A stretch of 64,000 nt of DNA. Source: an uncultured Campylobacterota bacterium. GTDB lineage: Bacteria > Campylobacterota > Campylobacteria > Campylobacterales > Sulfurovaceae. The first letter of the stretch is position 1, and each line of letters begins with the position of its first letter. The notes under the pieces are model-generated. The model searched no databases. It saw only the letters and a list, made by a program, of their open reading frames with translations, and had not been told where the DNA came from. Location: positions 124,001 through 188,000 of the forward strand of contig CAKZQQ010000003.1 of the NCBI GenBank assembly GCA_937141405.1, written 5' to 3'. A program made the translations under genes and the position numbers. Positions 7,415-60,622 of the stretch are shown piece after piece.

Positions 7415-7422
7415 TATTACTC

Positions 7423-9321: not shown

Positions 9322-9327
9322 TATAAT
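9322..9327 (+). promoter_or_regulatory. -10 box (TATAAT) for the RDD-MFS-mobA operon
   Basis: A perfect TATAAT lies 32 bases before the start at 9360. No convincing -35 at 17 bases is seen; this is normal for sigma-70 promoters of this phylum. Confidence 0.5.
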
Positions 9328-9359
9328 GAGACCAAAATAACCTGCTAGAGGGAATGTGT

Positions 9360-10917: not shown

Positions 10918-11477
10918 TAAAAGATGCCATCATCCTTGCAGGAGGCAAAAGCAGTCGCATGGGCAAAGACAAAGCGCTCTTACCTTTTAGAGAGTTTGCA
11001 AGTATGAGCGAGTTCCAGTATAGAAAGCTCGAAAAACTATTTTCAAACGTTTACATCTGCGCAAAAGAGGAGAAGTTTGACTTTAATGCTGCTATTATCA
11101 GAGATATCTACCCCATCCACTCACCACTTGCCGGGCTAATATCTATCTTTGAAACATTAGATGTCGATAGTGTGTTTATTTTGAGTGTTGATGCGCCGTT
11201 TGTAGATGAAGCAATCATTGAGACGATTAGGAATCAAGCTCAAAAGAGTAGTAGCCATGATGCCTTTATTGCTCTTAGCCCGAGCGGGCTTGAGCCTTTA
11301 TGCGGTGTTTATAGAAGATCAATTCTTCCATTAGCAAAAGAGCTTTTTAGTAAAGATATTCACAAGCTCAATCACCTCTTGAAACTCTCCAAGATGAAAG
11401 AGATTGCATTTGAAGAACAAGATAAATTCCTCAACCTCAACACACCCCAAGAGTATGAGGTAGCGCGTAGTTTATAG
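10914..11477 (+). CDS. mobA: Molybdenum cofactor guanylyltransferase
   Basis: 187 residues. The nucleotide-binding signature LAGGKSSRMGKDKALLPF (about 8-25) and the metal-binding SVDAPFVDEAII (about 99-110) are those of MobA, which attaches GMP to Mo-molybdopterin to give the bis-MGD cofactor. That cofactor is needed by the Psr-type molybdoenzyme encoded at 34.4-36.8 kb. It overlaps the MFS gene by four bases (ATGA). Two bases separate its stop from the convergent Sel1 gene. Confidence 0.93.
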   Translation: MIKDAIILAGGKSSRMGKDKALLPFREFASMSEFQYRKLEKLFSNVYICAKEEKFDFNAAIIRDIYPIHSPLAGLISIFETLDVDSVFILSVDAPFVDEAIIETIRNQAQKSSSHDAFIALSPSGLEPLCGVYRRSILPLAKELFSKDIHKLNHLLKLSKMKEIAFEEQDKFLNLNTPQEYEVARSL

Positions 11478-41944: not shown

Positions 41945-42787
41945 TCATTCCATGTAGAGTTTTGTACCGAGGTTGGCTATGCCACACGAATATATCTTGC
42001 TTGTGATGATACCGTCTAGATTGCAGCTTGCATACTCCTTGGCATTTTCTTTGTGGATGCCGCCGGAAGCGAGTATCTTGATGTGAGGATAGTTTGCATC
42101 TCGTGCGGCAATGATCTTCTTGAGCTCTTCAATGCTGATTTTATCTGTTTGTAAAACATCAGCGCCATGCTCCATGAGATTAAGAGCATCTTCGTAGGAT
42201 TCGGTTTCAATAGCTACTTTTTTTTCAGGCACTTTAATCTTAAAATTTTTTATCTCTTTGTAGAAATTTTCAGTATTGTCATAAGCAGCTCTGTGGTGAT
42301 TAAAAAAGAGGATAGTTTCACTTAGATTGAGTCTGTGTGGGAGTGCACCACCCGTGATAACGGATTTTATGCAGAATTTTTTAGCAAAAGGAAATGTTTT
42401 TCTTGTTGTGAGTAATTCACATTTTTGATTGAGCGTGCGAATTTGAGCAAGCATTTCATCTGTATAGGTTGCTATCTTGCAACTATACTCTAGGAGGATT
42501 TGCGCGCTCCTCCATGCTTTGTGAATATCATTATAATCGCCCTCAAAAGAGAGCAGCACATCCCCTTTTTTGGCATGCTGTTTTGAGCTTAAAAAAGATA
42601 AAACTTTACATCCTAAAAGCTCAGCTATTCTTGCGGCTTCTTCAGAGCAAGAGACGAGAATCTCATCTCTAGTATAGATATCAAGTCTCGCTTTTTTACC
42701 GCTAATCTCTTGAATGTGTGTGGTTAGATCATAAAAAGGGGTATCCTCTTGTATATATCTCCAAAGCTCATCGTCGCTAAAATTCAT
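41945..42787 (-). CDS. modD: ModD, NadC-like phosphoribosyltransferase of molybdenum operons
   Basis: 280 residues from the ATG at 42787, preceded by AAAGGAA on the minus strand; an upstream in-frame ATG at 42838 lies within the globin gene. The protein has the quinolinate phosphoribosyltransferase fold (start DDELWRYIQEDTPFYDLTT, then LLEYSCKIATYTDEML, TRKTFPFAKKF, and ILASGGIHKENAKEYA). ModD is a NadC paralogue encoded in molybdenum-transport operons of many bacteria; its own function is not established. Here it ends the ModE-preceded TonB/ABC operon. Confidence 0.82.
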   Translation of the reverse strand: MNFSDDELWRYIQEDTPFYDLTTHIQEISGKKARLDIYTRDEILVSCSEEAARIAELLGCKVLSFLSSKQHAKKGDVLLSFEGDYNDIHKAWRSAQILLEYSCKIATYTDEMLAQIRTLNQKCELLTTRKTFPFAKKFCIKSVITGGALPHRLNLSETILFFNHHRAAYDNTENFYKEIKNFKIKVPEKKVAIETESYEDALNLMEHGADVLQTDKISIEELKKIIAARDANYPHIKILASGGIHKENAKEYASCNLDGIITSKIYSCGIANLGTKLYME

Positions 42788-42797
42788 ATCATTCCTT

Positions 42798-43346
42798 TTA
42801 CTGTTCTTTGTCGTATGGCACTCTTTTTGGTGACTCAAATGTGGTTCTACGATTGATCATGCGAATAGAAAGTGCCTCTATCCAGTCCCAAAAAGGTTGT
42901 CTATATTCTATCGGAAAATCTATATCTTTAAGAACTTTTTTAAATACTTGTAGCCATATCTCTCTATCTTTTTCGTCAATCGTCGCTACAAAATGTCTGC
43001 TTCTAAGATGGGGTTCGCCATGCTTGTCTGTAAAAATAGTATCACCGCCTAAAGCTTGGACATAAAAATCAGCGGCTTTTTCTACAGTCTCATCAAACTT
43101 TGCCTTATCGGTCGGAAAAAGTCTACCGATTTTAGTTTTTGCAAGTAGGTCGTGATGATACTTTACCATATAGCGTATCTTCTCTTCGCCTAAAACCTTA
43201 TAGAGCTCTTTGGGCGGGAATCGTACTTCAGGGTAGATGAAGTCTATAAAAGCTTGAGGGCCTTTGAAATTTTTATCCGTAAAGCTTGGATGATGATTTT
43301 TATTCTCTTTGTCTGATAATTGTGAAAATGTGTTAATGCAATTCAT
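42798..43346 (-). CDS. Truncated (2/2) haemoglobin-like globin
   Basis: 182 residues from the ATG at 43346, with 1-base overlap of the upstream stop (TAATG). Residues about 45-150 show the truncated-haemoglobin pattern: LYKVLGEEKIRYMVKYHHDLLAKTKIGRLFP, then AADFYVQALGGDTIFTDKHGEPHLRSRHFVATIDEKDREIW, including the His region expected at the haem proximal site (LRSRHF). Such globins bind O2 or NO. The N-terminal 40 residues and the C-terminal tail are extra. Its position in a molybdenum-related operon is unusual and may mean O2/NO protection or redox handling of a metal ligand. Confidence 0.78.
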   Translation of the reverse strand: MNCINTFSQLSDKENKNHHPSFTDKNFKGPQAFIDFIYPEVRFPPKELYKVLGEEKIRYMVKYHHDLLAKTKIGRLFPTDKAKFDETVEKAADFYVQALGGDTIFTDKHGEPHLRSRHFVATIDEKDREIWLQVFKKVLKDIDFPIEYRQPFWDWIEALSIRMINRRTTFESPKRVPYDKEQ

Positions 43347-44152
43347 TATTTGTTTACCTCCCAAGAGACAAGCGCCCATCGTATGTAGCTTGCCTCTTTT
43401 TTGAATTTATATATTGTATTATAGTACTCTTTTAAGATAATTTTCTCCTCGTCGCTCAGTGTTCCCAGGCTCCACTCCACTTTTTCTACGAATTCATCAT
43501 CACCTTTGCTTAAAAACTTTTTGTTTTCAGCGGGTAAGAAATCCACAGTAGCATAGATTCCCATCGAGTGGAGGATGTTGACAAGATATATATAGTCCGG
43601 CCTTGGTATGATCTCTCGTTTTAGCTGTGCTAAGATATCATTTTCTACGAAGCTACCACCGGCTTTGAAGGAGATGTAGATGCGTTTATTTGCCTTATCA
43701 TTGAGTTTCAATAGCGCTTTTTTGATATCTTTAACCTCCATCGATCGTGAGGCAACGATGATATCGCACTCTGGAATATCGCTCCAGTCATCTTCCCATG
43801 ACTTGTGTACGGGAGTAATGTTTTTGATGCCTCTCTCCTCACAGTTACTTTTCAAAAACTCGAGCATCCCTGAAGAGTAATCGAGCCCATACACTGCATC
43901 AAGATGTGGAGCTGCCTCTAAAGCAATTGTTCCGGGACCACAGCCGACATCAAGGAGACTCTTGGCACCCTCAAAGTTTATTTTACTAACAAACTCTTTT
44001 GGGTAGCTACTTGTTTGAACATTCTCATTGAAATTTTTAGCTCTCTTGTTCCAATCTTCCCCGCTCTTTCCTTTGAAGGTAGAGTTTGTTTTTTGCTCTT
44101 GATAAAGTTTTGCAAAATCGATAGACTCCAAATTTGTTTTAATTAACCCCAT
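43346..44152 (-). CDS. SAM-dependent methyltransferase
   Basis: 268 residues with a class I methyltransferase fold. Motif I is SLLDVGCGPGTIALEA (about 66-81), followed by VYGLDYSSGMLEF and CDIIVASRSMEV. It has no recognised target. It lies between the ABC ATPase and the globin, in the same operon (1-base overlap with the globin). In metal uptake operons such enzymes sometimes modify a small-molecule ligand, but no direct evidence is seen here. Confidence 0.8.
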   Translation of the reverse strand: MGLIKTNLESIDFAKLYQEQKTNSTFKGKSGEDWNKRAKNFNENVQTSSYPKEFVSKINFEGAKSLLDVGCGPGTIALEAAPHLDAVYGLDYSSGMLEFLKSNCEERGIKNITPVHKSWEDDWSDIPECDIIVASRSMEVKDIKKALLKLNDKANKRIYISFKAGGSFVENDILAQLKREIIPRPDYIYLVNILHSMGIYATVDFLPAENKKFLSKGDDEFVEKVEWSLGTLSDEEKIILKEYYNTIYKFKKEASYIRWALVSWEVNK

Positions 44153-44161
44153 AGTATCTCC

Positions 44162-44920
44162 TTAAAATGTTGGTATACAAAATTTGTACCCGTTTTTTTG
44201 AATGATCTCAACATCAACTCCATAGAGCGCCTCTATGCTTTTCTCGTTGAGCTCTTCGAGCAATCCGTCTTTGAAGATGCTTCCGTCTTTGATCATTGTG
44301 ATTCTATTTGAAGCATATAAGGCATGATCGGGATAATGTGTCGTCTTTAAAAATGTATATCCTTCTTTTTGAAAATCTTTTAAGAGTTTGAGAAACTTTA
44401 TCTGATTTCCATAGTCAAGTCCGTTGATAGGCTCGTCCATAAATATTATTTTAGCATCTTGTGCGATTGCTCTTGCTATAAAGACAAGCTGTCGCTCTCC
44501 TCCACTTATTTTGGAGTATATCTTCTGCGTAAAGCTTTCCATGCCAACTCTTTTTAGGGAGTTTAGGGCGATATCTTTGTCTTCTTGTGAATATTTGGAA
44601 AAAAGTCCAATATGCGGTAATCGCCCCATAAGCACGACATCAAAAACCGTGTAATCAAAAGGTATCTTGTGTACCTGCGGGATATAGGCTATGAGTTTTG
44701 CTATATCTTTTCTACTATATGATTTTAGGTCTTTGCCGTAAAGTTTTATCTCACCACTGCTTTTGCAGATCCCAAGAAGAATCTTAAGCAGTGTAGTTTT
44801 TCCACACCCATTTTTACCGAGCAAAGAGAGGATGTCGCCATCTTTCAGATAGAAATCAACGCCCTTTAGCACCTCTTTTTTGCCATACGAAAAGGAGATA
44901 TTTTTTGCTTCTAGTATCAT
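44162..44920 (-). CDS. FecE/BtuD-type ABC ATPase
   Basis: 252 residues. Walker A LLGKNGCGKTTLL, Q-loop IPQVH, signature ISGGERQLVFIARAIAQ and Walker B IIFMDEPINGLD with H-loop TTHYPDHAL identify an ABC ATPase of the iron-siderophore/vitamin B12/MolC family. It overlaps the permease gene by four bases, so the two are made together. Transport substrate is inferred from the operon and its ModE sites, not from this sequence. Confidence 0.93.
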   Translation of the reverse strand: MILEAKNISFSYGKKEVLKGVDFYLKDGDILSLLGKNGCGKTTLLKILLGICKSSGEIKLYGKDLKSYSRKDIAKLIAYIPQVHKIPFDYTVFDVVLMGRLPHIGLFSKYSQEDKDIALNSLKRVGMESFTQKIYSKISGGERQLVFIARAIAQDAKIIFMDEPINGLDYGNQIKFLKLLKDFQKEGYTFLKTTHYPDHALYASNRITMIKDGSIFKDGLLEELNEKSIEALYGVDVEIIQKNGYKFCIPTF

Positions 44921-45930
44921 CGTATGCTCCTATTCGCATTGTGCAGTGCGATGATAAAGATCGGGATGCCGATGAGGGCTGTGAGTATCCCGATTGGCAC
45001 TTCAAAGCTAAAGAGGACTCTTGCCATGCTATCGACACTCAAGAGAAAGAGCGCGCCGATTAAAGCACTTGCAAATACCACTTTTGTATTTTCGGCACCG
45101 AAAATCATCCTAGTAATATGAGGAATGATCAGCCCAACCCAGCCAATGATTCCTGCCATGACGACACTAAGTGCACTGATGAGTGTCGCAAGGAAGATGA
45201 TGCTTAACTTGATAGCAACGATATTGACACCTAGTGCTTTTGCCTCTTCATCTCCCATAGAGAGTGCATTGAGGTATTTTGAGAGAGAGATAATCCCCAA
45301 AATTCCTAAAATCATCGGTGTTGCTACCCAGCCTATCATGTTAAAATCTCCATAGGAGAGACTTCCCATGAGCCAGTAGGTGATAGCCGGAAGTTTATCA
45401 TCCGGATCGGCAGTGTATTTGACGATGGACAAAAGTGCGCCAAAGAGTGAGCTACTGATGATACCTCCAAGGACAAGCATAATCATCGAATCAGACCTCT
45501 TTGCATATATAAGCGAGATAACAAGCGCAATGCTAACTGCGATAAAGCCAAAAGTGAATGTAAATATGTTGATCCAAAACCAGCTTACTCCAAGCAAGAT
45601 ACCAAGGGCAGCTCCAAACGAAGCACCCGATAAAACACCTAAGACACCGGGAGAGACGAGCGGGTTAACAAAGATTGCTTGAAAGGCGCTTCCTGCAACA
45701 GCCAAGGAGGCACCAATTAAGAGTGCCAAGACGATACGGGGGAGTCTGATCTCTTTTATGATGTTCCTGATAGTCTCGTACTGATCAAAATCCACAGGCG
45801 TAGCGCTAAAGGTATTTTGAAATAGGAGCCAATATTGATGTAAACTTATAGGGTATTTGCCTATAAAAAGTGACGCATTGATCACAACAAAGAGGGCAAC
45901 TAAAAGGAGAATAATCTTTATCTTATACAT
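44917..45930 (-). CDS. FecCD/BtuC-type ABC permease
   Basis: 337 residues with ten membrane helices and the FecCD signature, e.g. IRLPRIVLALLIGASLAVAGSAFQAIFVNPLVSPG, VSIALVISLIYAKRSDS and the G(I/L)IIPHITRM motif (WVGLIIPHITRMIFG). It forms the inner membrane channel for the periplasmic-binding-protein-dependent uptake. The best functional guess, a MolB-like molybdate/tungstate permease, comes from the two upstream ModE boxes and modD. Confidence 0.92.
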   Translation of the reverse strand: MYKIKIILLLVALFVVINASLFIGKYPISLHQYWLLFQNTFSATPVDFDQYETIRNIIKEIRLPRIVLALLIGASLAVAGSAFQAIFVNPLVSPGVLGVLSGASFGAALGILLGVSWFWINIFTFTFGFIAVSIALVISLIYAKRSDSMIMLVLGGIISSSLFGALLSIVKYTADPDDKLPAITYWLMGSLSYGDFNMIGWVATPMILGILGIISLSKYLNALSMGDEEAKALGVNIVAIKLSIIFLATLISALSVVMAGIIGWVGLIIPHITRMIFGAENTKVVFASALIGALFLLSVDSMARVLFSFEVPIGILTALIGIPIFIIALHNANRSIR

Positions 45931-45933
45931 ACG

Positions 45934-46935
45934 CTATCGTCCTAATATTCGCGTTATCTCATCATCATTCAAATCGATGTTGAGATAGAGTTTATAAAAA
46001 CTCTTTGCGCTCTGTTTGATATCTACTTTTGTCATCTCGGGATGCAAAATATTTGCAAGCCATTGATATCCTAGTATCTTCATAAAAGATGGAGGTCTAT
46101 CAAACCAATTAAAAGGCTCATTTGGGATGAGATAGATACTTTTGTTTTTTACCGCGCGGAGTGTTTTCCATTTTGCACTTTGGTATATTGTATCGTAAAA
46201 TGTTTTTTCAAAGACCAAGATTATATCCGGATCGTAAGTCGCCAATTGCTCAAAATTGATAGCCTCTTTCCCATACATCGTCTTTTGCTCACATTGATGA
46301 ACATTTATGCCTCCGGCGAGGTTGATGAGCTCAGTATGCAAAGAGTTGTTGCACTCAGTCTCTAGTCCCGTGAGTCCTTGGGCGTAATAGACTCTAGGTT
46401 TTTTCTCAAGTCCCATAAGCTCTTGAGCACCCTCAAGTCGTTTCTTTGCATCAAGCGTAAGCTCTTTTGCTCTTTGCTCTTTGCCGGTTATTTTTCCTAG
46501 GTACTCAAAGGAATTTACAATCTCTTGGAGAGAGGTGGATTTTATATAAAAAATTGTTATTTTTGCATCTCCAAATATGGAGAGCATTTTCTTTTCGATT
46601 TGTTTAATATTATCGGGCAGGATGATGATGTCAGGGTTGACCTTGAGAATCATCTCGGCATTGGGTATCTTGCCTTGCCCAAACCAGCCTCCAAGAACAG
46701 GGAGATCGCAGATTTTTTTATCTATGTATTTTCGCTCCTTCTTATTAAAAGGAAAGTTAAGGCCTGCGATCTTATCTTTATCGATGGCATACAAGGAGTA
46801 AAGAGCGATGGGGCTCGAAGAGTATATCTTCGTAACATTATCATCGATTGCAACTGTGCGTCCAAGCATATCCTTGACATTTTGCGCGCAGAGTTCAAAA
46901 GTGATGATGAGACAGAGAAAGATTATTTTTTTCAT
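45934..46935 (-). CDS. BtuF/FecB-type substrate-binding protein, copy 1
   Basis: 333 residues from the ATG at 46935 (MKKIIFLCLI signal); four bases overlap the upstream gene (ATGA). Periplasmic-binding fold of the TroA/BtuF type with motifs GLNFPFNKKERKYIDKK, NPDIIILPDNI and PFNWFDRPPSFMKILGYQWLA. It is clearly related to the first gene of the operon (copy 2), sharing ECN/D-S-LHTELINLAGG, YDPDIILV and the PFNW-RPPSFMK motif. The ligand is unknown; the copies may serve different substrates. Confidence 0.88.
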   Translation of the reverse strand: MKKIIFLCLIITFELCAQNVKDMLGRTVAIDDNVTKIYSSSPIALYSLYAIDKDKIAGLNFPFNKKERKYIDKKICDLPVLGGWFGQGKIPNAEMILKVNPDIIILPDNIKQIEKKMLSIFGDAKITIFYIKSTSLQEIVNSFEYLGKITGKEQRAKELTLDAKKRLEGAQELMGLEKKPRVYYAQGLTGLETECNNSLHTELINLAGGINVHQCEQKTMYGKEAINFEQLATYDPDIILVFEKTFYDTIYQSAKWKTLRAVKNKSIYLIPNEPFNWFDRPPSFMKILGYQWLANILHPEMTKVDIKQSAKSFYKLYLNIDLNDDEITRILGR

Positions 46936-47459
46936 GAGTATCTCCATGTTTTTATCTGCATCCGCCACATATTTTTTGGTGCAAAAGCTTTCCATTCGGG
47001 ACGCTCTAAGATCATATTTATAATCTTGGTTATCTCATAATCATTTTCTGATGCTATCTTTTCCAAAGTGCTTTGCATATCGCATTTATATATCTTCTTT
47101 TGTAGCAATATAGGAACCATCGTTGCTTTATCGACTTCAAAAAAATCGCAAATCTCTTGCAGAGATTTTTTCTTGAGAGCATTTGGAAGCAACTCGGAGG
47201 TGCAAGTATGAGCATACTCCTTTTGGAGTGCCATATGATATATCTGCTTGAAAAGTCGTACAAGCCATCTGCGCATCAAAAAAATATGAATAGGCAGAGT
47301 GATTGCAAAAATGATACCCGCATAGTAATGCCACGATACTACCTCAAGATCGTATCCGAGCATTTTATTGATCGTAGCGGTAGTTATAACCGCAATGACA
47401 CAAGAGAGCATCAAGACGATAGTCGCGGCTTTAAGTATGATTGTAGTTTTGCTATCCAT
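46932..47459 (-). CDS. Small membrane protein with two helices and a soluble domain (DUF4405-like)
   Basis: 175 residues. Two membrane helices (about 8-29 and 44-64), the second with His in SWHYYAGIIFAITLPIHIFL, resemble the haem-binding DUF4405 helix pair, followed by a basic patch (MRRWLVRLFKQ) and a soluble C-terminus with an EICDFFEVDKATMVPILLQKKIY stretch. I do not recognise the C-terminal domain. It lies between the TonB receptor and the binding protein. It could be a haem-linked electron donor for reductive release of metal, but that is a guess. Confidence 0.55.
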   Translation of the reverse strand: MDSKTTIILKAATIVLMLSCVIAVITTATINKMLGYDLEVVSWHYYAGIIFAITLPIHIFLMRRWLVRLFKQIYHMALQKEYAHTCTSELLPNALKKKSLQEICDFFEVDKATMVPILLQKKIYKCDMQSTLEKIASENDYEITKIINMILERPEWKAFAPKNMWRMQIKTWRYS

Positions 47460-47473
47460 CTTTTTTCCTTATT

Positions 47474-49711
47474 TTAGAATTTCATTGTTAAGTTACAGTA
47501 AACCCCGCGAGGTTCGCCCGTTAGATAGGTACTCGCTGTTCCGGTGGCTGCGAGGAAGTTATCTGCTGCAATAATCGTAGATATATACTCTTTGTCCGTC
47601 AAGTTTGTAGCACCAAGGCTGATGATGCTCTCTTTGCTGCCCAAAAAGTCCTCTAACTTGTAGGATATGTCAAGATCAAAGACGGTAAATCCTCCGATTT
47701 TTTGCGTATTGGCAGCATCTCCCCATCTACTTGATGTATATCGCATACTTGGCGTAAATGTCCATCCTGCTTTCTGATATGAAAGAGCAAGTTTTGCTAA
47801 GTATTTTGGTGCATCGGGAAGCTGTTTGCCGTCTGTTTCGACAGTTGTGCCTCCGGCTCCGTCAAAATCTTGAGTAAAGTGAAACTTGTTGTATGAGAGT
47901 GAACCCATAAAGTTGAGATTATCCGTGATTTTTCCATAAGCACTCAGCTCGGCACCGTATCCTAAAGCATCACCGACATTAGCAGGATAGTTCACTCCAA
48001 GTGAAGTATCATACACGTTTGCCTGTTTATTTTTCACAAACGAGACAAAAACATTTGGTTCTATGGAGATATCGCCGATTCTTGTTTTTACTCCAAGCTC
48101 AACATTGTCAGAGAGTTCAAGATCAAGATCATTCCAAAGTTGTTGGAGTGTGACACCTTGGGCTACAAAAGAGCCTCTATTTTTGATATAGGTCGGAAAA
48201 AGATTGACATCAAACCCATAGGTTCTAGAGTAGTCTAAATAGACATTTGAATCTCCTCCTAGTTTATAGTCCAAATATAAAGAGGGGATAAATGTATAGA
48301 ATGTTTTTGAGTCTACACTTGCCCACGGGTCTATGGTGCCGTTACTGATTGCCGTATCATAATCTATGCTTGTACTTGCGCTTGTGCCGTTCGTGTAGCT
48401 TGTGAGTGAGCCGATTTTAAAGGACTGATATTGGAGCCCTAGCACATAGCTAAACTTGTTAATCTCTCCTGAGAACTCTATAAAAGGTGCTTGAAGTATA
48501 TGATCTCCGTTTACTGAGAGAATGCCATAGCCGTCATATACTAAGCTCCCGCCAACCACTCTGTATTTGATCTGATTATTTGGAGGCCCAGGAGGTGTCT
48601 GTTTGTGGTACCAGTATCCCACTTTTGCTTTGAGTGCTTGGGAGAATATGTGCTCATACTCAGCCGTTGCTCCGATAAGGTCATGATCAACACGCCAATT
48701 CATTACCCGTTGTCTTGCAGCAGTAGAATTAAATTTCGAAAACCAATAGTTCCCTTTATCTTTTTTGTAATAAGGACGCAATGTGAAGCGATTATCGGCA
48801 TCCGGAGTATAGCTTGCTTCCCCGATGATTGCTAGCGTATCAAAATCTTGTTTGTTATAGTCATAATAGTCAACATCATTGTCACTGCCCGAGAGCACAG
48901 TGCCAAAGTCTTTATCGTAGTAAGTGCCCAAATCCGATGCTTCATCATACGAAAGAGCATAGTAGTTGTGGTGCTCATCCGAATTTTTGATGATAAAGAG
49001 TTTGCTCTCAAAGAGATCGTTTGGTTTGTAAGCAAGTCCTAGTGTGGCATTTGTTCTCTCCAAATCTCCCTCACCTTTATGTTTTTCGTTGCCAAGATAT
49101 GAAAATGAGCCAAATGCCTTAAAGTCTCCCATCTTTCCTGAATCAACCCGAATGAATGAGCGGTTAAGGTTGTTGCTTCCAAGCGATTGAGAGAAGGTTG
49201 TCCCAAATGCATCGCTTGGGTCAAGTAGGTTGATATCAACCTTTCCTATCAAGCTTGAAAATCCAAGATTTTTAGCAACGGGGATGTAGCCTTTATAGAG
49301 ATCGATCGATGCCATATTTTCTACATCAATCATCTGTTTTCCACCACCGGGGTTACTTGAAATAGGTGTCGCGTTGATCATGAAGACACCTCCGGGACCC
49401 GATTGGGATTTGCCTCGTATACGCAATGGATCATGATAAGAAGATTCGTTTGAACCTGCTTGATCGGTTGGCGTAAAGTTGACAGAAGGCGCATACTGAA
49501 TCACTGAGTAGGGATTGATGCCCGATTGATTCGAGAGCGTTTGTATGCCGTTGCTGCTAAAAGTCTGTTTTGCTTTTGTTGTGTTTGTATCATTTACAAA
49601 GAAGCCTTCCTTCTCATAAGACTCTATGACATCGATATTTCCTAGATTTACCGAGTCTGCATAGAGTAGAGATGAGGCTGCTATTGATAGCCCAAAGATT
49701 ATCTGTTTCAT
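47474..49711 (-). CDS. TonB-dependent outer membrane receptor, molybdenum-island type
   Basis: 745 residues: signal peptide (1-18), a TonB-box-like start (NIDVIES), the plug domain (about 60-180, with the conserved RIRGKSQSGPGGVFMINATP and IDLYKGYIPV) and a 22-strand barrel ending in the terminal Phe (GVYCNLTMKF). It should take up a metal complex in an energy-dependent way. The operon it shares has a binding protein on either side, a FecCD permease and modD, and is preceded by ModE boxes, which points to a molybdenum or tungsten complex. The TonB/ExbBD genes are not in this window. Confidence 0.9.
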   Translation of the reverse strand: MKQIIFGLSIAASSLLYADSVNLGNIDVIESYEKEGFFVNDTNTTKAKQTFSSNGIQTLSNQSGINPYSVIQYAPSVNFTPTDQAGSNESSYHDPLRIRGKSQSGPGGVFMINATPISSNPGGGKQMIDVENMASIDLYKGYIPVAKNLGFSSLIGKVDINLLDPSDAFGTTFSQSLGSNNLNRSFIRVDSGKMGDFKAFGSFSYLGNEKHKGEGDLERTNATLGLAYKPNDLFESKLFIIKNSDEHHNYYALSYDEASDLGTYYDKDFGTVLSGSDNDVDYYDYNKQDFDTLAIIGEASYTPDADNRFTLRPYYKKDKGNYWFSKFNSTAARQRVMNWRVDHDLIGATAEYEHIFSQALKAKVGYWYHKQTPPGPPNNQIKYRVVGGSLVYDGYGILSVNGDHILQAPFIEFSGEINKFSYVLGLQYQSFKIGSLTSYTNGTSASTSIDYDTAISNGTIDPWASVDSKTFYTFIPSLYLDYKLGGDSNVYLDYSRTYGFDVNLFPTYIKNRGSFVAQGVTLQQLWNDLDLELSDNVELGVKTRIGDISIEPNVFVSFVKNKQANVYDTSLGVNYPANVGDALGYGAELSAYGKITDNLNFMGSLSYNKFHFTQDFDGAGGTTVETDGKQLPDAPKYLAKLALSYQKAGWTFTPSMRYTSSRWGDAANTQKIGGFTVFDLDISYKLEDFLGSKESIISLGATNLTDKEYISTIIAADNFLAATGTASTYLTGEPRGVYCNLTMKF

Positions 49712-50724
49712 TGTTTTTCTCCCAATATAGTATCTATCTGTTTGTTATCAAGCTCTACATTAAAAAAAAGTTTGTAGAACTCTTTTGTCTGTTTTTTTAT
49801 ATCAACATCGTAAACATCAGGATGTAGCTTGCTTGCTAGCCACTGTATGCCCATTGCCTTCATGAAAGAGGGCGGTCTATCAATCCAGTTAAAAGGTTGC
49901 GCCGGTACGAGATAGACCTTGTTGTTTTTTACAGCTTTGAGGTTTTGCCACATGGAGTCTATATGGATCTCATCATAAGCAATCTTTGTCTGAACAAAGA
50001 TGATATCCGGATCATAAACCATAAGTGTCTCAAATGATATCTTCTCAAGTCCTAACAGTCCTGTCTGTTTACATTTGTGGACATTCTCTCCGCCTGCAAA
50101 ATTGATTGCTTCGACATGAAACGATGTGTCGCATTCTGTTGAGAGTCCGTCAATACCCTCCGCATAATAGTATTTAGTAGGGGTTGCATCTTTTGTTTTG
50201 CTCTTTAGCTCATCTATGCTCTTTTCGATATAGCTTGCCAAGAGTTCTCCCCGCTCTTTTTCCCCGATGGCATCGCCAACCTTTCTGATAGAGTTTGCCA
50301 TATCGATTGTATTACGAAAAGGCACAACGAGTGTCGAGATGTGTGTTTTTGCCACTCTCTCTTTTATCGTTTGAACCATCATGTCATCTTCCCAGATAAG
50401 GATCAACTGCGGATCACGCTCCAGAAGTGTTTCTAGGTTTATGCCCACGCCTCCCCCGTGAAATGAGCCGATTACTGGGAGTGAGAGAAACTTTTCATCA
50501 AGCAAAAAATCATTTGCTTTGTTAAAAGGGTTTCTTGCATTAAAATTGAGCCCTATCATTTTGTTTGGATTAAGCGCATAGATAAGATAATTCATAGGCG
50601 GAGAAGAGCCAAACACTCTCTCGATCTTTTGATTTGTCGCCGTCGGTAATTGTTCGTTAGTGTCTGCCGTTGCACATATCATATTGAGTGATAAAACAGA
50701 CAAAATATAAAATACTATTTTCAA
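49708..50724 (-). CDS. BtuF/FecB-type substrate-binding protein, copy 2 (first gene of the operon)
   Basis: 338 residues with a signal peptide (ending CATA). Same family as the binding protein at 45934-46935: FNARNPFNKANDF, LLERDPQLILIW, ECDTSFHVEAINFAGGENVHKCKQ, and PFNWIDRPPSFMKAMGIQWLA. It overlaps the TonB receptor gene by four bases. The start lies 22 bases after the ModE box at 50747-50770. Two related binding proteins for one permease suggest either two substrates or a periplasmic relay from the TonB receptor. Confidence 0.88.
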   Translation of the reverse strand: MKIVFYILSVLSLNMICATADTNEQLPTATNQKIERVFGSSPPMNYLIYALNPNKMIGLNFNARNPFNKANDFLLDEKFLSLPVIGSFHGGGVGINLETLLERDPQLILIWEDDMMVQTIKERVAKTHISTLVVPFRNTIDMANSIRKVGDAIGEKERGELLASYIEKSIDELKSKTKDATPTKYYYAEGIDGLSTECDTSFHVEAINFAGGENVHKCKQTGLLGLEKISFETLMVYDPDIIFVQTKIAYDEIHIDSMWQNLKAVKNNKVYLVPAQPFNWIDRPPSFMKAMGIQWLASKLHPDVYDVDIKKQTKEFYKLFFNVELDNKQIDTILGEKQ

Positions 50725-50746
50725 AACTCCCTCCTTACACTTATTA

Positions 50747-50770
50747 CGCTATATTTATGATTATATAACG
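50747..50770. promoter_or_regulatory. ModE operator A1 before the TonB/ABC operon
   Basis: CGCTATATT-TATGAT-TATATAACG (9-6-9) fits the ModE consensus CGnTATATA-N6-TATATAnCG, with one mismatch in the first arm. It overlaps the -10 region of the operon on the minus strand (TATAAT on that strand). Confidence 0.8.
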
Positions 50771-50858
50771 ATAATTAAAATGCAAATTCTGTTCCATTAG
50801 AATGAACTTAATCGTTATGTAAAGAATAATATAATGAAATTGCTTACAATCAAATTAT
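50761..50858. repeat. Control-region copy A, about 98 bases, partner at 55887-55983
   Basis: This stretch and 55887-55983 align over their whole length with about four in five bases identical, including both ModE half-site rows, the middle AATTAAAATGCAA...GTTCCAT block and an ATTGCTTACAAT block beyond the second box. Shared blocks outside the operators suggest duplication plus selection on the promoter. Confidence 0.75.
50813..50836. promoter_or_regulatory. ModE operator A2
   Basis: CGTTATGTA-AAGAAT-AATATAATG has the same 9-6-9 layout with three mismatches to the consensus. It lies 66 bases from A1. The pair is repeated with almost the same spacing before the porin-mod operon. Confidence 0.65.
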
Positions 50859-50938: not shown

Positions 50939-51706
50939 TTACCTTTTCCTAAACAATTTATACGCCGAGATTAAAAGGATAACACCCAACAACACCTCTA
51001 TATACACGGCACTAACAATACCAAATAACAAAGCTCCTAAAAAAGCTCCGATTATTGAACCAATCGCCATAAACACTATCACATCACGAAAGCCAAAAAC
51101 CTCTCTTAGCCTTCCTGTTTTGTTATATCTGTAAAGCCCCACTAAAAGTGTTGGGAATGAGATAGTTAGACTTAAAGTCCCCGCTATTTTTATATCCACT
51201 CCATAGAGCAATACGATAGTTGGTATTAGCAACTCTCCACCAGCCACACCCAACAAAGAGCTAATGATTCCAATACCAATACCAAGGAGAAAACCAAAAC
51301 CAATCTGTAAAAAAGTAGGCAAGACAAATGAAGAGCTAAAATCAAAAAAGATATGACTAAAAAGGACAAAACTCAAAAAGACCAACAAAATAAAGATGTA
51401 GCTATTGAGCTTTTGTTTATCTACTTTTGTAGCATAGTTTGCCCCAATCCAAGCACCTATAAGAGTTCCTGATAAAAGATTTACCACGATATAACCGTTT
51501 GAAAACAGACTCTCATCAACACCACGAAAAAGGAGGGCAAACAAAACAGTCACAAGTGAGATGATGATATTGAGCATCACCGCATGAAGGGTGTCTATTT
51601 TAAGCACACCCACCAAAAAAGGGAGTCGAAACTCCGCCCCACCAAGCCCTATAAGCCCACCAAGAGAGCCTATTGAAGTTCCACCTATTAATGACTTTAG
51701 TTTCAT
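50939..51706 (-). CDS. TauE/SafE (TSUP) anion permease in the mod operon
   Basis: 255 residues with about eight membrane helices. The two TSUP repeats start at GLGGAEFRLPFLVGVL (about 20-35) and LLGVAGGELLIPTIVLLYG (about 143-161). The family moves organosulfonates, sulfite or sulfoacetate, and some members are implicated in export of such oxyanions. It is the last gene of the porin-modA-TOBE-modB-modC operon, one base after modC, which makes a molybdate or sulfate-type oxyanion a fair but unproven guess. Confidence 0.85.
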   Translation of the reverse strand: MKLKSLIGGTSIGSLGGLIGLGGAEFRLPFLVGVLKIDTLHAVMLNIIISLVTVLFALLFRGVDESLFSNGYIVVNLLSGTLIGAWIGANYATKVDKQKLNSYIFILLVFLSFVLFSHIFFDFSSSFVLPTFLQIGFGFLLGIGIGIISSLLGVAGGELLIPTIVLLYGVDIKIAGTLSLTISFPTLLVGLYRYNKTGRLREVFGFRDVIVFMAIGSIIGAFLGALLFGIVSAVYIEVLLGVILLISAYKLFRKR

Positions 51707-51707
51707 C

Positions 51708-52580
51708 TTAAATCTTTGTCAAAATAGGATTAAAAGCTTTACTTGAAAGCAATATTTTATCTCCTATATTTAGGGCTTCAATATCACTTTTAACCGCCGT
51801 TACTTTGATAATCTCATTGTGGGCTAAAACTTCTACAATATATAAAATATCACTTTTTACGATACTAAGCACCTCTCCTACTACCTTAAACTTGCCACTG
51901 ATATTTTGGTTAGCAAACACCTCACTTGGATTTCCATCATCAGTGATTTGCCCCAAAGATATCTTAAATACACGATTACTTAGACGAAACACTTCACTAA
52001 TATCGTGACTGACTAAAATAGAGGTGATGTTAAATCTCTGATGGATACTATGAAGTTCATCTTGAAGCTTAAGCCGCATCGCACTATCTAGGGCCGAGAG
52101 TGGTTCATCAAGAAGCAGCATCTTTGGACTACTCATCAGTGACCTTGCGACTGCCACTCGCTGTTTTTGCCCACCGCTTAAGTGTTCTGGTTTCATTTGT
52201 GAGAGGTTTTCTATCTCCATAATTTCAAGTATTTCATCTACTTTATTGGTATCTTTTTTATCTTTAAGAGCAAATTCTAAGTTTTTCCGCACGCTCATAT
52301 TGGGAAAAAGTGCATAATCTTGAAACACAAGCCCTACTTCCCTTTTTTGTGGTGGAAGATTGATTTTTTTTTCACTATCAAACCAAACTACATCATCTAC
52401 TATTATTTTCCCACTTTTTGGTGTTTCTAGTCCTGCTAAAATCCGCAGAAGTGTAGTTTTTCCACTGCCACTTTTTCCAAAAAGAGTCAAAAAGTCACCG
52501 TTTTGTATCTCTTTGTTTACGATTAAATCTATCGTTCCGTCACTTGTATGAAGCGGTTTTATTATATCTATTTGTATCAT
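51708..52580 (-). CDS. modC: Molybdate ABC transporter ATPase ModC
   Basis: 290 residues. Walker A FGKSGSGKTTLL, Q-loop VFQDYALFPNMSV, signature LSGGQKQRVAVARSLM, Walker B LLLDEPLSALD, and H-loop VSHDISE; the C-terminal 80 residues form a molybdate-binding TOBE/Mop domain. It powers molybdate uptake with ModB. It overlaps modB by four bases. Sulfate/thiosulfate CysA is the nearest alternative, made unlikely by modA, the Mop-type partner and modE. Confidence 0.92.
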   Translation of the reverse strand: MIQIDIIKPLHTSDGTIDLIVNKEIQNGDFLTLFGKSGSGKTTLLRILAGLETPKSGKIIVDDVVWFDSEKKINLPPQKREVGLVFQDYALFPNMSVRKNLEFALKDKKDTNKVDEILEIMEIENLSQMKPEHLSGGQKQRVAVARSLMSSPKMLLLDEPLSALDSAMRLKLQDELHSIHQRFNITSILVSHDISEVFRLSNRVFKISLGQITDDGNPSEVFANQNISGKFKVVGEVLSIVKSDILYIVEVLAHNEIIKVTAVKSDIEALNIGDKILLSSKAFNPILTKI

Positions 52581-53257
52581 TGAAATTTGCTTCTTACCAT
52601 AGATTTATTCAGCGCATAAACAAAAAGCAAAATAGCAAAAGAGATAGCAAAAAGACTAAAAGCATACTGATTTGCTAAGCTATAATTGAGTGCTTCCACC
52701 TCATCGTATATCGCGATACTTGCTACTTTGGTCTCTCCTGCCTTGTTGCCCCCTATCATCAAAACCACTCCAAACTCTCCAACCGTGTGAGCAAATGTAA
52801 TCACAATTCCTGTAAGAATTGATGGTTTCATATTTGGTAAAAGCACTGAGTATATTGTTCGTAATTTACTTTTACCCAAGACATAAGAAGCCTCCGAAAG
52901 TGATTTGTTTAAACTGCTAAAACCACTCTGGATTGGATGCACCATAAAGGGGAGGCTAAATATCACGCTTGCTACAACAAGCCCTTCAAAACTAAATACC
53001 AATCTGAGGCTAAATATCTCATCAAGCCAAGCCCCAAAACCATTTTTTGGGCTAAAAGCAAGAAGCAGATAGAACCCCAAAACAGAAGGTGGCAATACCA
53101 ATGGCATCGAAACTATCGTTTCAGCTATTGGTTTCAATTTTGATTTGGTTTGGGACAAAAAATACCCAAGCGGGATGCCAATGCAAAGTAAGATAACGGT
53201 AGTAACACCAGCTAATTTAAAAGTAAGTAGCATCGTTTGAATAAATGATTCATCCAT
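52577..53257 (-). CDS. modB: Molybdate ABC transporter permease ModB
   Basis: 226 residues with five to six membrane helices and the permease EAA-type motif (EASYVLGKSKLRTIYSVLLPNMKPSILTG, about 140-168). Motifs such as SMPLVLPPSVLGFYLLLAFSP match ModB. It forms the channel for molybdate. It follows the TOBE gene by three bases and overlaps modC. Confidence 0.93.
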   Translation of the reverse strand: MDESFIQTMLLTFKLAGVTTVILLCIGIPLGYFLSQTKSKLKPIAETIVSMPLVLPPSVLGFYLLLAFSPKNGFGAWLDEIFSLRLVFSFEGLVVASVIFSLPFMVHPIQSGFSSLNKSLSEASYVLGKSKLRTIYSVLLPNMKPSILTGIVITFAHTVGEFGVVLMIGGNKAGETKVASIAIYDEVEALNYSLANQYAFSLFAISFAILLFVYALNKSMVRSKFQ

Positions 53258-53260
53258 TAT

Positions 53261-53650
53261 TTACCCTTTTTGTATCGAGATTTCATTTGATTTGACAAGC
53301 CATCGAAACTCATCATCAACTTGGCATTTTAATTCATTTAAAGCCCCCCTTGTGATGATTGAGGTTATCTTTTTTCCATAAAAATCAAACGCAACTTCCG
53401 CCAAAATCTCCTCTATACTAATAGATGTAATGCGAGAAACAAAGGAATTTCTCGCACTCACTTGTGACTCTGGTGTCGCTATCATCACTTCTGTCTCTTT
53501 GAAAAGAAGATTTACTCTCTCCCCCTCTTTGTGCTCCTCGTCGCCACTTAAAATCAAAACACTCAAGATTTTATCTTCAACTTCTACAAAAACTTGTGTG
53601 ATTCCCTCAACACTTTTTATCTCCTCTATCACTCCAGTAAGCTGGTTCAT
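53261..53650 (-). CDS. Small double TOBE/Mop-type molybdate-binding protein
   Basis: 129 residues made of two Mop-like halves (NQLTGVIEEIKSVEGITQVFVEV and SRITSISIEEILAEVAFDFYG). Such proteins bind molybdate or tungstate in the cytosol and may store or hand it on. It sits between modA and modB, overlapping modA by four bases. It resembles the C-terminal part of ModE and ModC, with which it may have a common origin. Confidence 0.85.
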   Translation of the reverse strand: MNQLTGVIEEIKSVEGITQVFVEVEDKILSVLILSGDEEHKEGERVNLLFKETEVMIATPESQVSARNSFVSRITSISIEEILAEVAFDFYGKKITSIITRGALNELKCQVDDEFRWLVKSNEISIQKG

Positions 53651-54396
53651 TTTGCTTTTCCAAAGCCGTATTCTTCAAAAATATTTTGCGCAAAATCTAA
53701 GAGTAAAAAATCTCCAAATTTTTTCGCCAATGGTTTATCTTTTGCATATTTTGTCAACACAAACGCTTGCTCCATAGGGGTGTATTTTGCCGGATCAATC
53801 AAGATATATTCACTCTCTTTTTTAGTTGTTTTGATAAGCGAAAACGCCACAAGTCCTACTTCTGCTGCGCCACTATCAACGAATTGAACACTTTGAGCAA
53901 TATTGTCTCCAAGGACTAGTTTATCTTTTGCCACCTCTTCGAGACCATAATTTTCAAGTATCTCCAAAGCCGCTACACCATAAGGAGCCAACCGTGGATT
54001 GGCAATCGATAAATGTTTGATTTTTTTATCTTTTATCACTTCGATTCCATCCTTTATAAAAGCTCCATCATGACTAAAAAGTGCTACCGCTCCCATCGCA
54101 TAAGTTTTAGGCTCTGTTATAGCATTCCCGTCACTGACTATTTTGGCAGGATAGGCGGTATCTGCTGCTAAAAAAATATCATAATCAAGTCCATTGGAAA
54201 ATTGGGCATACGCTTTACCGGTAGCACTATAAGTCACCACTATTTCATCATTTGGGTTAAGTTTTTGAAACTCACTTACAATCTCTTGCATCGCAAGCTT
54301 TGTACTGCTTGCAGCAAATACTGTTATTTTATCTGCAAACAAACTTCCATTTAGCCCCAACACTAAAAGTGTTGCTACTATTATCTTTTTCATCAT
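53647..54396 (-). CDS. modA: Molybdate-binding protein ModA
   Basis: 249 residues with a signal peptide (ending LFA). The ModA pattern includes VFAASSTKLAMQEI (the Ser/Thr anion loop), YSATGKAYAQFSNGLDYDIFLAAD and SGAAEVGLVAFSLI. It captures molybdate or tungstate in the periplasm for ModBC. It lies six bases after the porin gene, so an outer membrane channel and the binding protein are made together. Confidence 0.94.
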   Translation of the reverse strand: MMKKIIVATLLVLGLNGSLFADKITVFAASSTKLAMQEIVSEFQKLNPNDEIVVTYSATGKAYAQFSNGLDYDIFLAADTAYPAKIVSDGNAITEPKTYAMGAVALFSHDGAFIKDGIEVIKDKKIKHLSIANPRLAPYGVAALEILENYGLEEVAKDKLVLGDNIAQSVQFVDSGAAEVGLVAFSLIKTTKKESEYILIDPAKYTPMEQAFVLTKYAKDKPLAKKFGDFLLLDFAQNIFEEYGFGKAK

Positions 54397-54402: not shown

Positions 54403-55863
54403 TTAAAATAGATAGTTAAGCTCCAGCCTATACTCATTATAGGATGGGTCGGATTTGAGTTTACCGTTTGAAGCAACGGTATCGGTATCGCCTTTCACAA
54501 AAGCACATCTAAACTTCGCATAGAGTCCGGGGATTGAGTCAAACTTCTTTATGGCATCAAGTGTTAAGACTTTTGAGTCTGCTTGTACGCCACTTTTACC
54601 ATCATCAAAATCTTGAATCACAAATCGTGTAAATGCACTTACTCCATCGATAAGTCCTGCTTTATCAAAATCGTAATCAAATCTTATCATAGAAGACTTG
54701 GTATTTGCATACCAGTTGTACTGCGCCATCGCTCTTGTGTAGCCACCTGTCGGGAAGCCTCTCCATGGCGTTACAAGATCAGCTTTGTCGGCAACTTCAG
54801 AGTAGCCAATCCTTGTTTTAAAAGCACCGTAACTGAGATCGAGTTTGGCTGCAAACATAGAGCCATCAAGAGAATTCGGACTCTTATAATCTACTGTGTC
54901 GCATTTGAGATTGGCGCCTGCGAATGCTCCTGCACCCTCATCAAGCTGTCGTATATAACGTAAAGCAGGGGAGAGTGTGAGCACATTATTGATCATGAAA
55001 TTGTACTTTGCTTCAATCATTGCGAGCGTGATAAGCTCAGGAGCTGCAGTGATATTGAGCTTGATTTCGCTATTTGGTAAAGACTTGTTTGTAAATTCGG
55101 CGATATAGAGCACATCATCGATACCTCTTTGTTTCAATGCACTCATAGTGATACCATGATGCATGGCGGCATCATCATTTTGAGTGTATTGAGAGTAAGC
55201 ACCACCTCCATCCCCGTAAGCAAAAAGATGATGAAAGTTGCTGTGGTCTCTAAGTTTCTCTTTTGTAAGGTAAGCAAGCTTTATATCGGTATCGGGCAGA
55301 AAACCTGTTTGAAGTGTGAGTCCTTCAAAACTATTTGGGATCATCTTCGTATCGTTGCTTGCCGTGAAGGTGCTTTCAAAAAGTTGGCGACCTATTTTGA
55401 TATCAAGAGCATCATTTTTGTACTGAAGATACGCTACAGCCAAAGAGTTGATGCCATAATCATCTTTTGTTAGCACATCGTATCGGCTCAAAACGCCTTT
55501 GCCTGCTTTGTAAAACGGTGCATAGCTATCATTCATATGCCATGGATTTTGTGCCGTATAGAGTCCGGTCTCAAAACCAAAGCCATGGAGGCGTGCACTT
55601 TTAAAAATAAGACTCCCCCCGATACCGGTAACATAATGGTTTTCTCTGCTTGCACTGCTTTCATCATCCCACTCAAAGAGAAAACTATTGGCTCTTAATC
55701 TTCCGTAAAAGGTTCCTTTTGAAAACAGTTCTTCAAAATTTTCAGCAGCGTTTGGTGTTTGAAGGTAGTTGATTTGCATATTGGATTTGAGTTCTACTTT
55801 TTCGTTTCCGTAAAGACCCACTCCGCAACACAAAAGTAAAAATGATAGACTCAAACCTTTCAA
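54403..55863 (-). CDS. OprD-like outer membrane porin
   Basis: 486 residues, signal peptide of about 20 residues, a beta-barrel protein ending in Phe (RLELNYLF) with the RPL-type pattern of epsilonproteobacterial OprD-family porins (IGRQLFESTFTASNDTKMIPNSFEGLT). The start is a TTG at 55863; AAGGAA lies about eight bases upstream and overlaps ModE box B1, so repressor binding would also affect the leader. It is the first gene of the mod operon, suggesting that it passes molybdate or another oxyanion across the outer membrane. Confidence 0.83.
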   Translation of the reverse strand: MKGLSLSFLLLCCGVGLYGNEKVELKSNMQINYLQTPNAAENFEELFSKGTFYGRLRANSFLFEWDDESSASRENHYVTGIGGSLIFKSARLHGFGFETGLYTAQNPWHMNDSYAPFYKAGKGVLSRYDVLTKDDYGINSLAVAYLQYKNDALDIKIGRQLFESTFTASNDTKMIPNSFEGLTLQTGFLPDTDIKLAYLTKEKLRDHSNFHHLFAYGDGGGAYSQYTQNDDAAMHHGITMSALKQRGIDDVLYIAEFTNKSLPNSEIKLNITAAPELITLAMIEAKYNFMINNVLTLSPALRYIRQLDEGAGAFAGANLKCDTVDYKSPNSLDGSMFAAKLDLSYGAFKTRIGYSEVADKADLVTPWRGFPTGGYTRAMAQYNWYANTKSSMIRFDYDFDKAGLIDGVSAFTRFVIQDFDDGKSGVQADSKVLTLDAIKKFDSIPGLYAKFRCAFVKGDTDTVASNGKLKSDPSYNEYRLELNYLF

Positions 55864-55872
55864 ACCCGTATT

Positions 55873-55896
55873 CCTTATATACTAAATTACATAACG
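55873..55896. promoter_or_regulatory. ModE operator B1 before the porin-mod operon
   Basis: CCTTATATA-CTAAAT-TACATAACG (9-6-9) fits the ModE consensus with two or three mismatches. It lies ten bases before the porin start and covers its ribosome site. Confidence 0.7.
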
Positions 55897-55983
55897 AAAA
55901 ATTAAAATGCAAGTTCCGTTCCATAAATCAAAACAACCGTTATGTAAAGGATAATATAATGATATTGCTTACAATAAAGTTAT
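55887..55983. repeat. Control-region copy B, partner of 50761-50858
   Basis: Second copy of the duplicated control region; see the partner. The two copies keep both ModE boxes and the same blocks between and beyond them. Confidence 0.75.
55938..55961. promoter_or_regulatory. ModE operator B2
   Basis: CGTTATGTA-AAGGAT-AATATAATG differs from operator A2 at one base. It is 65 bases from B1 (A1-A2: 66). Outer arms TTACATAACG and CGTTATGTAA are perfect inverted copies. Confidence 0.7.
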
Positions 55984-55997: not shown

Positions 55998-56777
55998 TTA
56001 CATGCCTATGAGTATATTGTCATACTCTATGAGTGCAAAAGCTTGGGTGTTGTTTGAGAGTTTTATATCCACTTTGCTTTCCAAAAGGGCGGTGAGCATC
56101 AAGCCTTTATCGCTCTTGAAAGTTACCTCGATGTTCTCTTCAGATTTCTCCACAAGTTCTATGTCTCCTTTGAGAACATTGATATTATCTGGATTTTTTG
56201 GAGCATCAAAAACGATTTTTATGTCGCTTGATTTGATGATAGCATAGAGGCTTGTTTTTGGTGTTACTCCCATGTTTTTTAGAGATTTTGTTGTGATCTT
56301 TGATTTGAGCACCTCTCCATCTTTTGTTTTGAGCGAAAGAAGCGAGCTTAATTTATGCTCTTCTATATTCATGATTTCGCAGAGCGGCTGATTTCTCGCG
56401 CTTGTGGTTAAAAAGGTTCGGTTTAAGATCATTTTGAGTTTTTCGGGATTATCACCTGCCTCTTTGAAGCGCTCTATGAACTCTCTGTGGAGTTTATGGA
56501 AGTTATCATAAGTTGCTATCATCTCACGTGCATAAGGTGTTAGCTTTGCTCCGCCACCACCTTTACCGCCGATCTGTTTTTCTAAAAATGGAGCTTTTGA
56601 GAGTTTGTCGATATCACGAAGCATATCCCATGCGGCTTTGTAGCTCATCTTCATCGCCTTGCTTGCTGCGTGTATCGAGCCGACTTCATCTATCTTTTTA
56701 AGGAGCCGTACTCGCCCTTCACCCAAGAAGGGTTTATTGTCTTTATTGAGCCAAAATCGCCCGTCAATCTCCATCAT
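55998..56777 (-). CDS. modE: Molybdate-responsive regulator ModE
   Basis: 259 residues: winged helix (about 18-85, with GSIHAASKAMKMSYKAAWDML and the GGKGGGGAKLT wing), then two TOBE domains (about 120-185 and 190-259, e.g. ARNQPLCEIMNIEEHKLSSLLSLKT). This is the full E. coli-type architecture (262 residues). With molybdate or tungstate it should bind the four operators listed here and repress both uptake operons. It is transcribed leftward next to operator B, 134 bases beyond the porin start. Confidence 0.93.
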   Translation of the reverse strand: MMEIDGRFWLNKDNKPFLGEGRVRLLKKIDEVGSIHAASKAMKMSYKAAWDMLRDIDKLSKAPFLEKQIGGKGGGGAKLTPYAREMIATYDNFHKLHREFIERFKEAGDNPEKLKMILNRTFLTTSARNQPLCEIMNIEEHKLSSLLSLKTKDGEVLKSKITTKSLKNMGVTPKTSLYAIIKSSDIKIVFDAPKNPDNINVLKGDIELVEKSEENIEVTFKSDKGLMLTALLESKVDIKLSNNTQAFALIEYDNILIGM

Positions 56778-59941: not shown

Positions 59942-60622
59942 TTAGTGGCAATGGCTATATCCATAATTCCATCCATTTCGATAATTGGAATTGTGATTGT
60001 ATAGGTATGTATTTTTCTTTGTTCCGGTGTGTTGTCTCGACCAACAACCGTCATTTTTACCTTGTTGATAAAAATTGGTTGAACCTGATGCGCAATGGCT
60101 ATATCCATAGTTCCATCCATTTCGATAATTGGAATTGTGATTGTACAGGTATGTATTTTTCTTTGTTCCGGCGTGTTGTTTTGACCAGCAACCGTCATTT
60201 TTGCCTTGTTGGTAAAAGTTAGTTGAACCTGATGCGCAATGGCTATATCCATAGTTCCATCCATTTCGATAATTGGAATTGTGATTGTACAGGTATGTAT
60301 TTTTCTTTGTTCCGGCGTGTTGTTTTGACCAGCAACCGTCATTTTTGCCTTGTTGGTAAAAGTTAGTTGAACCTGATGCGCAATGGCTATATCCATAATT
60401 CCATCCGTCTCTATAGTTGCCGCTATGGTTATAGAGATAGGTATCTTTTTTGGTTCCGGCGTTTTGTTTTGACCAGCAACCGTCATTTTCGCCTTGTTGA
60501 TAGGAGCCATTGTCCATAGTGCCGTTTGCACCTGGTGCTAAAATGATGCCTTGCGGCGGTACACACCCCACTATGATAAACATCATAAACAGAGAGTAGA
60601 TGAGCGTTCTTAACTTAAACAT
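59942..60622 (-). CDS. Lipoprotein with four 48-residue Gly/Asn/Tyr-rich repeats
   Basis: 226 residues. A lipoprotein signal ends in IVGCVPP, then four repeats of 48 residues each with YQQGKNDGCWSKQ, GTKKNTYLYN, YRNGWNYGYSHC. Each repeat holds two Cys, which may pair. DNA copies 2 and 3 (60087-60230, 60231-60374) look identical over 144 bases, so the array has expanded or been homogenised recently. The related single motif YxxGYxDGC..GWxxGY occurs in other proteobacterial envelope proteins of unknown role. Copy number may vary among strains. Confidence 0.8.
   Translation of the reverse strand: MFKLRTLIYSLFMMFIIVGCVPPQGIILAPGANGTMDNGSYQQGENDGCWSKQNAGTKKDTYLYNHSGNYRDGWNYGYSHCASGSTNFYQQGKNDGCWSKQHAGTKKNTYLYNHNSNYRNGWNYGYSHCASGSTNFYQQGKNDGCWSKQHAGTKKNTYLYNHNSNYRNGWNYGYSHCASGSTNFYQQGKNDGCWSRQHTGTKKNTYLYNHNSNYRNGWNYGYSHCH
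59945..60520. repeat. Tandem 144-base repeat array, four copies
   Basis: Four tandem copies of a 144-base unit inside the lipoprotein gene. The two central copies are identical by eye; the outer two differ at scattered bases. Confidence 0.8.

Follow-up and report, generated by a model that had tools for sequence, protein, structure and literature searches.

The low-affinity molybdate system MolBC-A of Haemophilus influenzae (HI1470-HI1472) is encoded by mol genes that are repressed by molybdenum (Mo) through an unknown factor (PMC4031551), and no TonB receptor is mentioned in the deleted cluster HI1469-HI1473. ModE-regulated ModABC is a Type I molybdate transporter with ModA and without an outer-membrane receptor. 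In Azotobacter vinelandii, operons for TonB siderophore receptors and ATP-binding cassette (ABC) transporters are on when Mo and vanadium are absent, from VnfA1 class B promoters (PMC9542535), and depend on the sigma-54 activators VnfA1/VnfA3 rather than on ModE operators. A locus of Escherichia coli (uropathogenic strain CFT073; O157 S-loop 83/OI 55) has long been listed as prrA-modD-yc73-fepC, with a proposed role in iron uptake (PMC1890555, PMC12928451). Here we describe a nine-gene block in a 64,000-nucleotide stretch of DNA (the window; positions 124,001 to 188,000 of contig CAKZQQ010000003.1) from an uncultured bacterium of the Sulfurovaceae. The block resembles MolBC-A in its FecCD permease, nearest to MolB among solved structures, and in a substrate-binding protein (SBP) related to MolA; it resembles the ModABC system in operator type, in lying next to a mod operon and in the common regulator. 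With the E. coli locus it shares the core gene order, a TonB receptor and a ModE site, while that locus has another receptor subfamily and lacks the globin, the second SBP and the small membrane protein. The block is probably a ModE-repressed, TonB-dependent operon that scavenges Mo or tungsten (W) and reaches to the outer membrane, a reading in which we have good confidence.

The window belongs to contig C3 in the 1.75-Mb genome of a sulfur-cycle bacterium. Nine leftward open reading frames occupy positions 41945-50724, with neighbors overlapping or at most 14 bp apart, just as a previous sequence-only reading of this DNA had placed them. Families were assigned with Pfam/NCBIfam for both SBPs, the TonB barrel, FecCD, the ABC ATPase, the class I methyltransferase, the globin and ModD. 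Two ModE-type operators, each 28 bp long, lie upstream. In order of transcription, the features are as follows.

50811..50838, no strand assigned: ModE-type operator 2 (distal), ATCGTTATGTAAAGAATAATATAATGAA, 16/20
50745..50772, no strand assigned: ModE-type operator 1, TACGCTATATTTATGATTATATAACGAT, 17/20, ending 20 bp short of the first start codon
49708..50724, minus strand: SBP1, Peripla_BP_2 binding protein (PF01497 2.5e-18; solved chains ranked 4pag, 4ovk, then HI_1472 MolA 3psa)
47474..49711, minus strand: TonB-dependent outer-membrane receptor (PF00593 6.6e-29)
46932..47459, minus strand: small membrane protein (sub-threshold cytochrome b561 match, PF01292 3.9e-4)
45934..46938, minus strand: SBP2, second Peripla_BP_2 binding protein (PF01497 1.1e-19; 4pag 9.5e-72, HI_1472 1.5e-8)
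44917..45930, minus strand: FecCD-type permease, MolB-like (PF01032 2.4e-79; top solved structure HI1471/MolB 7.2e-66)
44162..44920, minus strand: ABC ATPase (PF00005 4.4e-30)
43346..44152, minus strand: class I S-adenosylmethionine methyltransferase (PF13649 3.3e-11; homolog in the E. coli prrA-modD-yc73-fepC locus)
42798..43379, minus strand: truncated (bacterial-like) globin with an N-terminal extension (PF01152 6.8e-15; top solved chain 4nk1 2.8e-50)
41945..42787, minus strand: ModD, NadC-like phosphoribosyltransferase paralog (TIGR01334 188.3 bits against a cut-off of 178.85)

From the translations, the true starts of ModD, SBP2 and the globin probably lie inside the longest open reading frame. 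The label “DUF4405-like”, given earlier to the small membrane protein, found no confirmation beyond the sub-threshold PF01292 match; its structural model is of low confidence (predicted local distance difference test score 56.5) and has two N-terminal helices.

ModE-type sites were scored over 20 positions of the pattern ATCGNTATATA-N6-TATATANCGAT, a scheme by which the experimentally known modA operator of E. coli K-12 reaches 16/20. The two operators proposed upstream of the block stand out by this measure: in the 64 kb only the sites at 50745, 50811, 55871 and 55936 score at least 16/20, while shuffles lead one to expect ~0.1. Genome-wide, five sites, 50745 among them, have no more than one core mismatch, where an order-2 Markov model fitted to the window predicts 0.05; all five precede three TonB-receptor operons, namely the block and two operons on other contigs (G000:C5 and G000:C8). 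Four of the 11 TonB receptors of the genome lie within ModE-site operons. Sites with up to three core mismatches showed no genome-wide excess over a reversed-pattern control, so weak sites were given no weight and only strong ones count. The shuffles, the Markov model and the K-12 positive control rule out that the sites are an artefact of AT-rich DNA. With predicted operators above chance and conserved before orthologous operons, the block appears to belong to the ModE regulon.

The second ModE-site TonB locus of the genome (G000:C5:576414-585900; L054 5413-14901) carries sites of 18/20 and 16/20 and has the order LLM monooxygenase-FecCD-ABC-receptor-SBP-receptor-ExbB-ExbD-TonB. As the operon ends in ExbB-ExbD-TonB, the TonB/ExbBD machinery itself falls within the predicted ModE regulon. 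The third ModE-site operon (G000:C8:34055-42780; L090 56-8779) encodes a TonB receptor, a TupA-like SBP, a 298-aa helical protein, a racemase-like protein, an AMP ligase, a 401-aa unknown protein and a MATE-like exporter, and possibly serves small-molecule biosynthesis. Its four-gene core recurs in two other genomes (G116 and G214), there without a receptor or clear ModE context, so the idea that the biosynthetic cassette is conserved together with the uptake system finds no support.

Orthologs or relatives of the window receptor were found in 25 of 299 Campylobacterales genomes (E <= 1e-40). Around them lie genes for SBPs, FecCD, ABC ATPases, globins (~51-56% identical to the window globin), ModD, methyltransferases, TauE, ModE, ModABC/Mop, WtpA/WtpBC and FdhD, as well as LLM monooxygenases, second methyltransferases, extra receptors and TonB/ExbB/ExbD. 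Each operon was scored by its best ModE site in 360 bp around the mechanically called operon start. The co-occurrence of the same genes with ModE sites in Campylobacterota, which the sequence-only reading had put forward as a check, is borne out: a site of at least 15 precedes 14 of 29 receptor operons and only 5 of 112 other operons nearby (Mann-Whitney p = 3e-7; Fisher at >=14, 5e-9; both indicative, as related loci are not independent). All five of these other operons are themselves TonB/ExbBD or FecCD-SBP-globin operons. ModE sites precede TonB/ExbBD genes in four loci (L043; L044, TonB; L045; L049), and islands in two genomes (G244 and G139) combine three to five sites of at least 15 with receptor, FecCD, ABC, LLM, globin and SBP genes, the G139 island additionally containing TonB/ExbBD, ModE and WtpBC-like genes.

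The generic names of these families (siderophore receptor, FecCD, BtuC/FhuB profile matches) and the description of the E. coli homolog as a proposed iron uptake cluster would suit an ordinary iron-siderophore, or heme or cobalamin, uptake operon that lies beside mod genes by chance. We consider this very unlikely in view of the ModE sites and of the permease. The best Fur-box match in the promoter, 13/19, equals the 95% background level; with no Fur box above background, we reject iron/Fur control. Compared with solved structures, the window FecCD scores highest against HI1471 MolB (226 bits), ahead of FhuB (188), BhuU (154) and BtuC (129), which agrees with its earlier designation as a MolB-type permease. 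In a FastTree phylogeny, read from the Newick tree, a split with support 0.999 sets the Fe, heme and B12 permeases, together with the other clear FecCD of the genome, apart from the window FecCD. Tree and best solved structure together lead us to reject a cobalamin or heme permease. The genome's other clear FecCD groups with heme permeases, and no ModE site with at most two core mismatches is listed near it. The Mo-linked permeases do not form one neat clade, and the window FecCD is not the sister of HI1471. Recurring ModE sites, unremarkable Fur sites, the position of the FecCD and the mod/wtp neighbors favor the Mo/W role, rather than one in iron uptake, that had been proposed from the sequence.

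A ModE-controlled operon might also import, in place of Mo itself, some nutrient that the cell requires once its molybdoenzymes fail. In some bacteria ModE has targets beyond transport genes, as its binding sites at vnfA1 and anfA show (PMC9542535). Against such a role, which seems to us highly improbable, stand the MolB-like permease and the sharing of loci with Mo/W systems in many relatives, where WtpA/WtpBC, ModABC or TupA-like genes adjoin the receptors. Both SBPs of the block are detectably though distantly similar to MolA; the top PDB match of both is 4pag, which we take to be a Sulfurospirillum protein crystallised with citrate.

The homologous E. coli operon lies between treA and ymgE in the order SBP-FecCD-ABC-methyltransferase-ModD-receptor and occurs in 2,102 of the 5,426 complete genomes (~39%); K-12 lacks it and has ycgY in its place. 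In the laboratory reference strain ATCC 25922, at least its promoter and first part are present. The end of a ModE site of 17-18/20 lies 22 bp upstream of the SBP start, and across seven alleles the differences inside this operator are confined to unspecified positions, an outer position and changes toward the consensus. The operon at L125 4178-10654 and NZ_CP033092.2 2795521-2801947 is annotated as iron transport and carries a ModE operator of 17/20. Apart from inserted genes, the window keeps the order SBP-FecCD-ABC-methyltransferase-ModD, at 27-41% identity per gene. The receptor of E. coli matches the type found at G000:C8 and at locus L034. A Proteus mirabilis record reads ModE site (18/20), SBP, FecCD, ABC, methyltransferase, ModD (397.7 bits), ModE site (18/20), receptor; it was taken from one of two PLSDB “plasmid” records (L116, NZ_OL790811.1; L126, NZ_CP134663.1) that, at 4.1 and 4.9 Mb, resemble mislabelled chromosomes. 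A search of 7.3 Gb of plasmid records with the window methyltransferase returned 11 records, from E. coli or Proteus only, and no globin was found in the plasmid records searched. A Paracoccus plasmid has the order receptor-methyltransferase-FecCD-ABC-SBP with one 15/20 site within the locus, and a Rhizobium leguminosarum plasmid has SBP-FecCD-ABC-ModA-like with a 15/20 site upstream. No ModE site of at least 14 was found at the receptor-SBP-FecCD-LLM sets of Methylocystis and Methylosinus plasmids, nor at a Bartonella plasmid set of LLM, receptor and FecCD genes that has a second ABC system next to it.

The methyltransferase and ModD had been thought to handle the imported complex, a role that the related loci do not require. 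Two modABC operons behind ModE sites end in a methyltransferase (L133 4607-10143 and L134 about 5000-11459), followed in L133 by ModD. The L133 operon, ModE-ModA-Mop-ModB-ModC-methyltransferase-ModD behind two 17/20 sites, lies in a stretch without TonB genes, and neither operon has TonB or FecCD genes nearby. Since both genes also end plain mod operons, neither is tied to a chelate, and they would be general Mo-handling genes. In the ModDs the NadC lysine of LKDxH is replaced and LQxxK is invariant, which makes quinolinate an unlikely acceptor. A true NadC gene elsewhere in the genome rules out ModD as the only NadC of the cell. The globin would be accessory.

The same operon ends suit a narrower form of the Mo/W scavenging reading, compatible with it, by which the receptor captures free molybdate, tungstate or another inorganic species without an organic chelator, the methyltransferase and ModD serving only general Mo homeostasis. 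H. influenzae MolBC-A does move molybdate (PMC4031551). The LLM monooxygenases, second methyltransferases and several receptors that recur in the islands are what an organic ligand would lead one to expect, and we regard the inorganic form as rather unlikely. Molybdate is also small and passes porins. A full ModE-controlled Mo/W metallophore cycle, with a chelator made and exported by G000:C8, reimported by the ModE-controlled TonB receptors and dismantled by LLM monooxygenase, methyltransferase, globin and ModD, seems doubtful to us.

Taking the genes, the operators, their conservation and the permease affinity as they stand, we infer a direction of regulation, a metal, a ligand and enzyme roles for the scavenging operon. 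Upon Mo shortage, ModE would leave the two operators and the operon would be made, a direction suggested by known ModE biology. The TonB receptor would then take up a Mo/W compound that is too bulky for porins or too scarce to enter by them, likely a chelate because a TonB receptor is used, although thiomolybdates of sulfidic water may be the ligand instead. Two binding proteins would ferry the compound through the periplasm, from which the MolB-like FecCD permease and its ATPase would import it; the methyltransferase and ModD would act as general Mo-handling enzymes, with the globin as an accessory. When Mo returns, ModE would shut the operon. Some observations weigh against this scheme. Free molybdate needs no TonB receptor; 9 of the 29 receptor operons are without a site of at least 14, partly owing to the mechanical calling of starts; and the window receptor, of another subfamily, has no BLAST homology to the E. 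coli/Proteus receptor.

A complete mod operon (TauE-like, modC, modB, Mop, modA, porin), on the same strand, and modE lie just outside the block.

50939..51706, minus strand: TauE/SafE-like permease, end of the mod operon (PF01925 6.7e-26)
51708..54396, minus strand: modC, modB, Mop-domain gene and modA (modA TIGR01256, Mop TIGR00638; modB and modC by translation)
54403..55863, minus strand: porin-like gene, first in the mod operon (label read from the translation; no NCBIfam match)
55871..55963, no strand assigned: two ModE-type operators upstream of the mod operon (starts 55871 and 55936), 16/20 each
55998..56777, minus strand: modE, with DNA-binding and Mop domains (PRK10676 4e-37, ModE_repress, Mop; 29% identity to K-12 ModE)

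Elsewhere in the window, positions 34690-36000 encode a molybdopterin oxidoreductase most like PhsA (thiosulfate reductase; 458.8 bits, below the cut-off); it is among the five molybdopterin-family matches of the genome that exceed their cut-offs. A small protein at 59942-60622 consists of about four near-identical repeats (QQGKNDGCWSKQHAGTKKNTYLYNHNSNYRNGWNYGYSHC).

The system had at first seemed unfamiliar, whereas its E. coli homolog has been on record for years as a proposed iron uptake operon. A literature search limited to openly readable papers found none that links TonB receptors to ModE operators. What is new is the predicted link between ModE and TonB, along with a different role, open to testing, for a widespread E. 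coli “iron” locus; the operon itself was already known in that species. Because ~39% of complete E. coli genomes have the operon, K-12 does not, and K-12 ModE is well studied, its control could be tested at once. Scattered “iron” receptors and permeases of Campylobacterales, Proteus and E. coli, together with related gene sets on alphaproteobacterial plasmids, become a predicted TonB-dependent Mo/W route with a ModE switch. Molybdate is scarce in sulfidic waters, and such a route, if true, would provide a genetic basis for Mo supply there.

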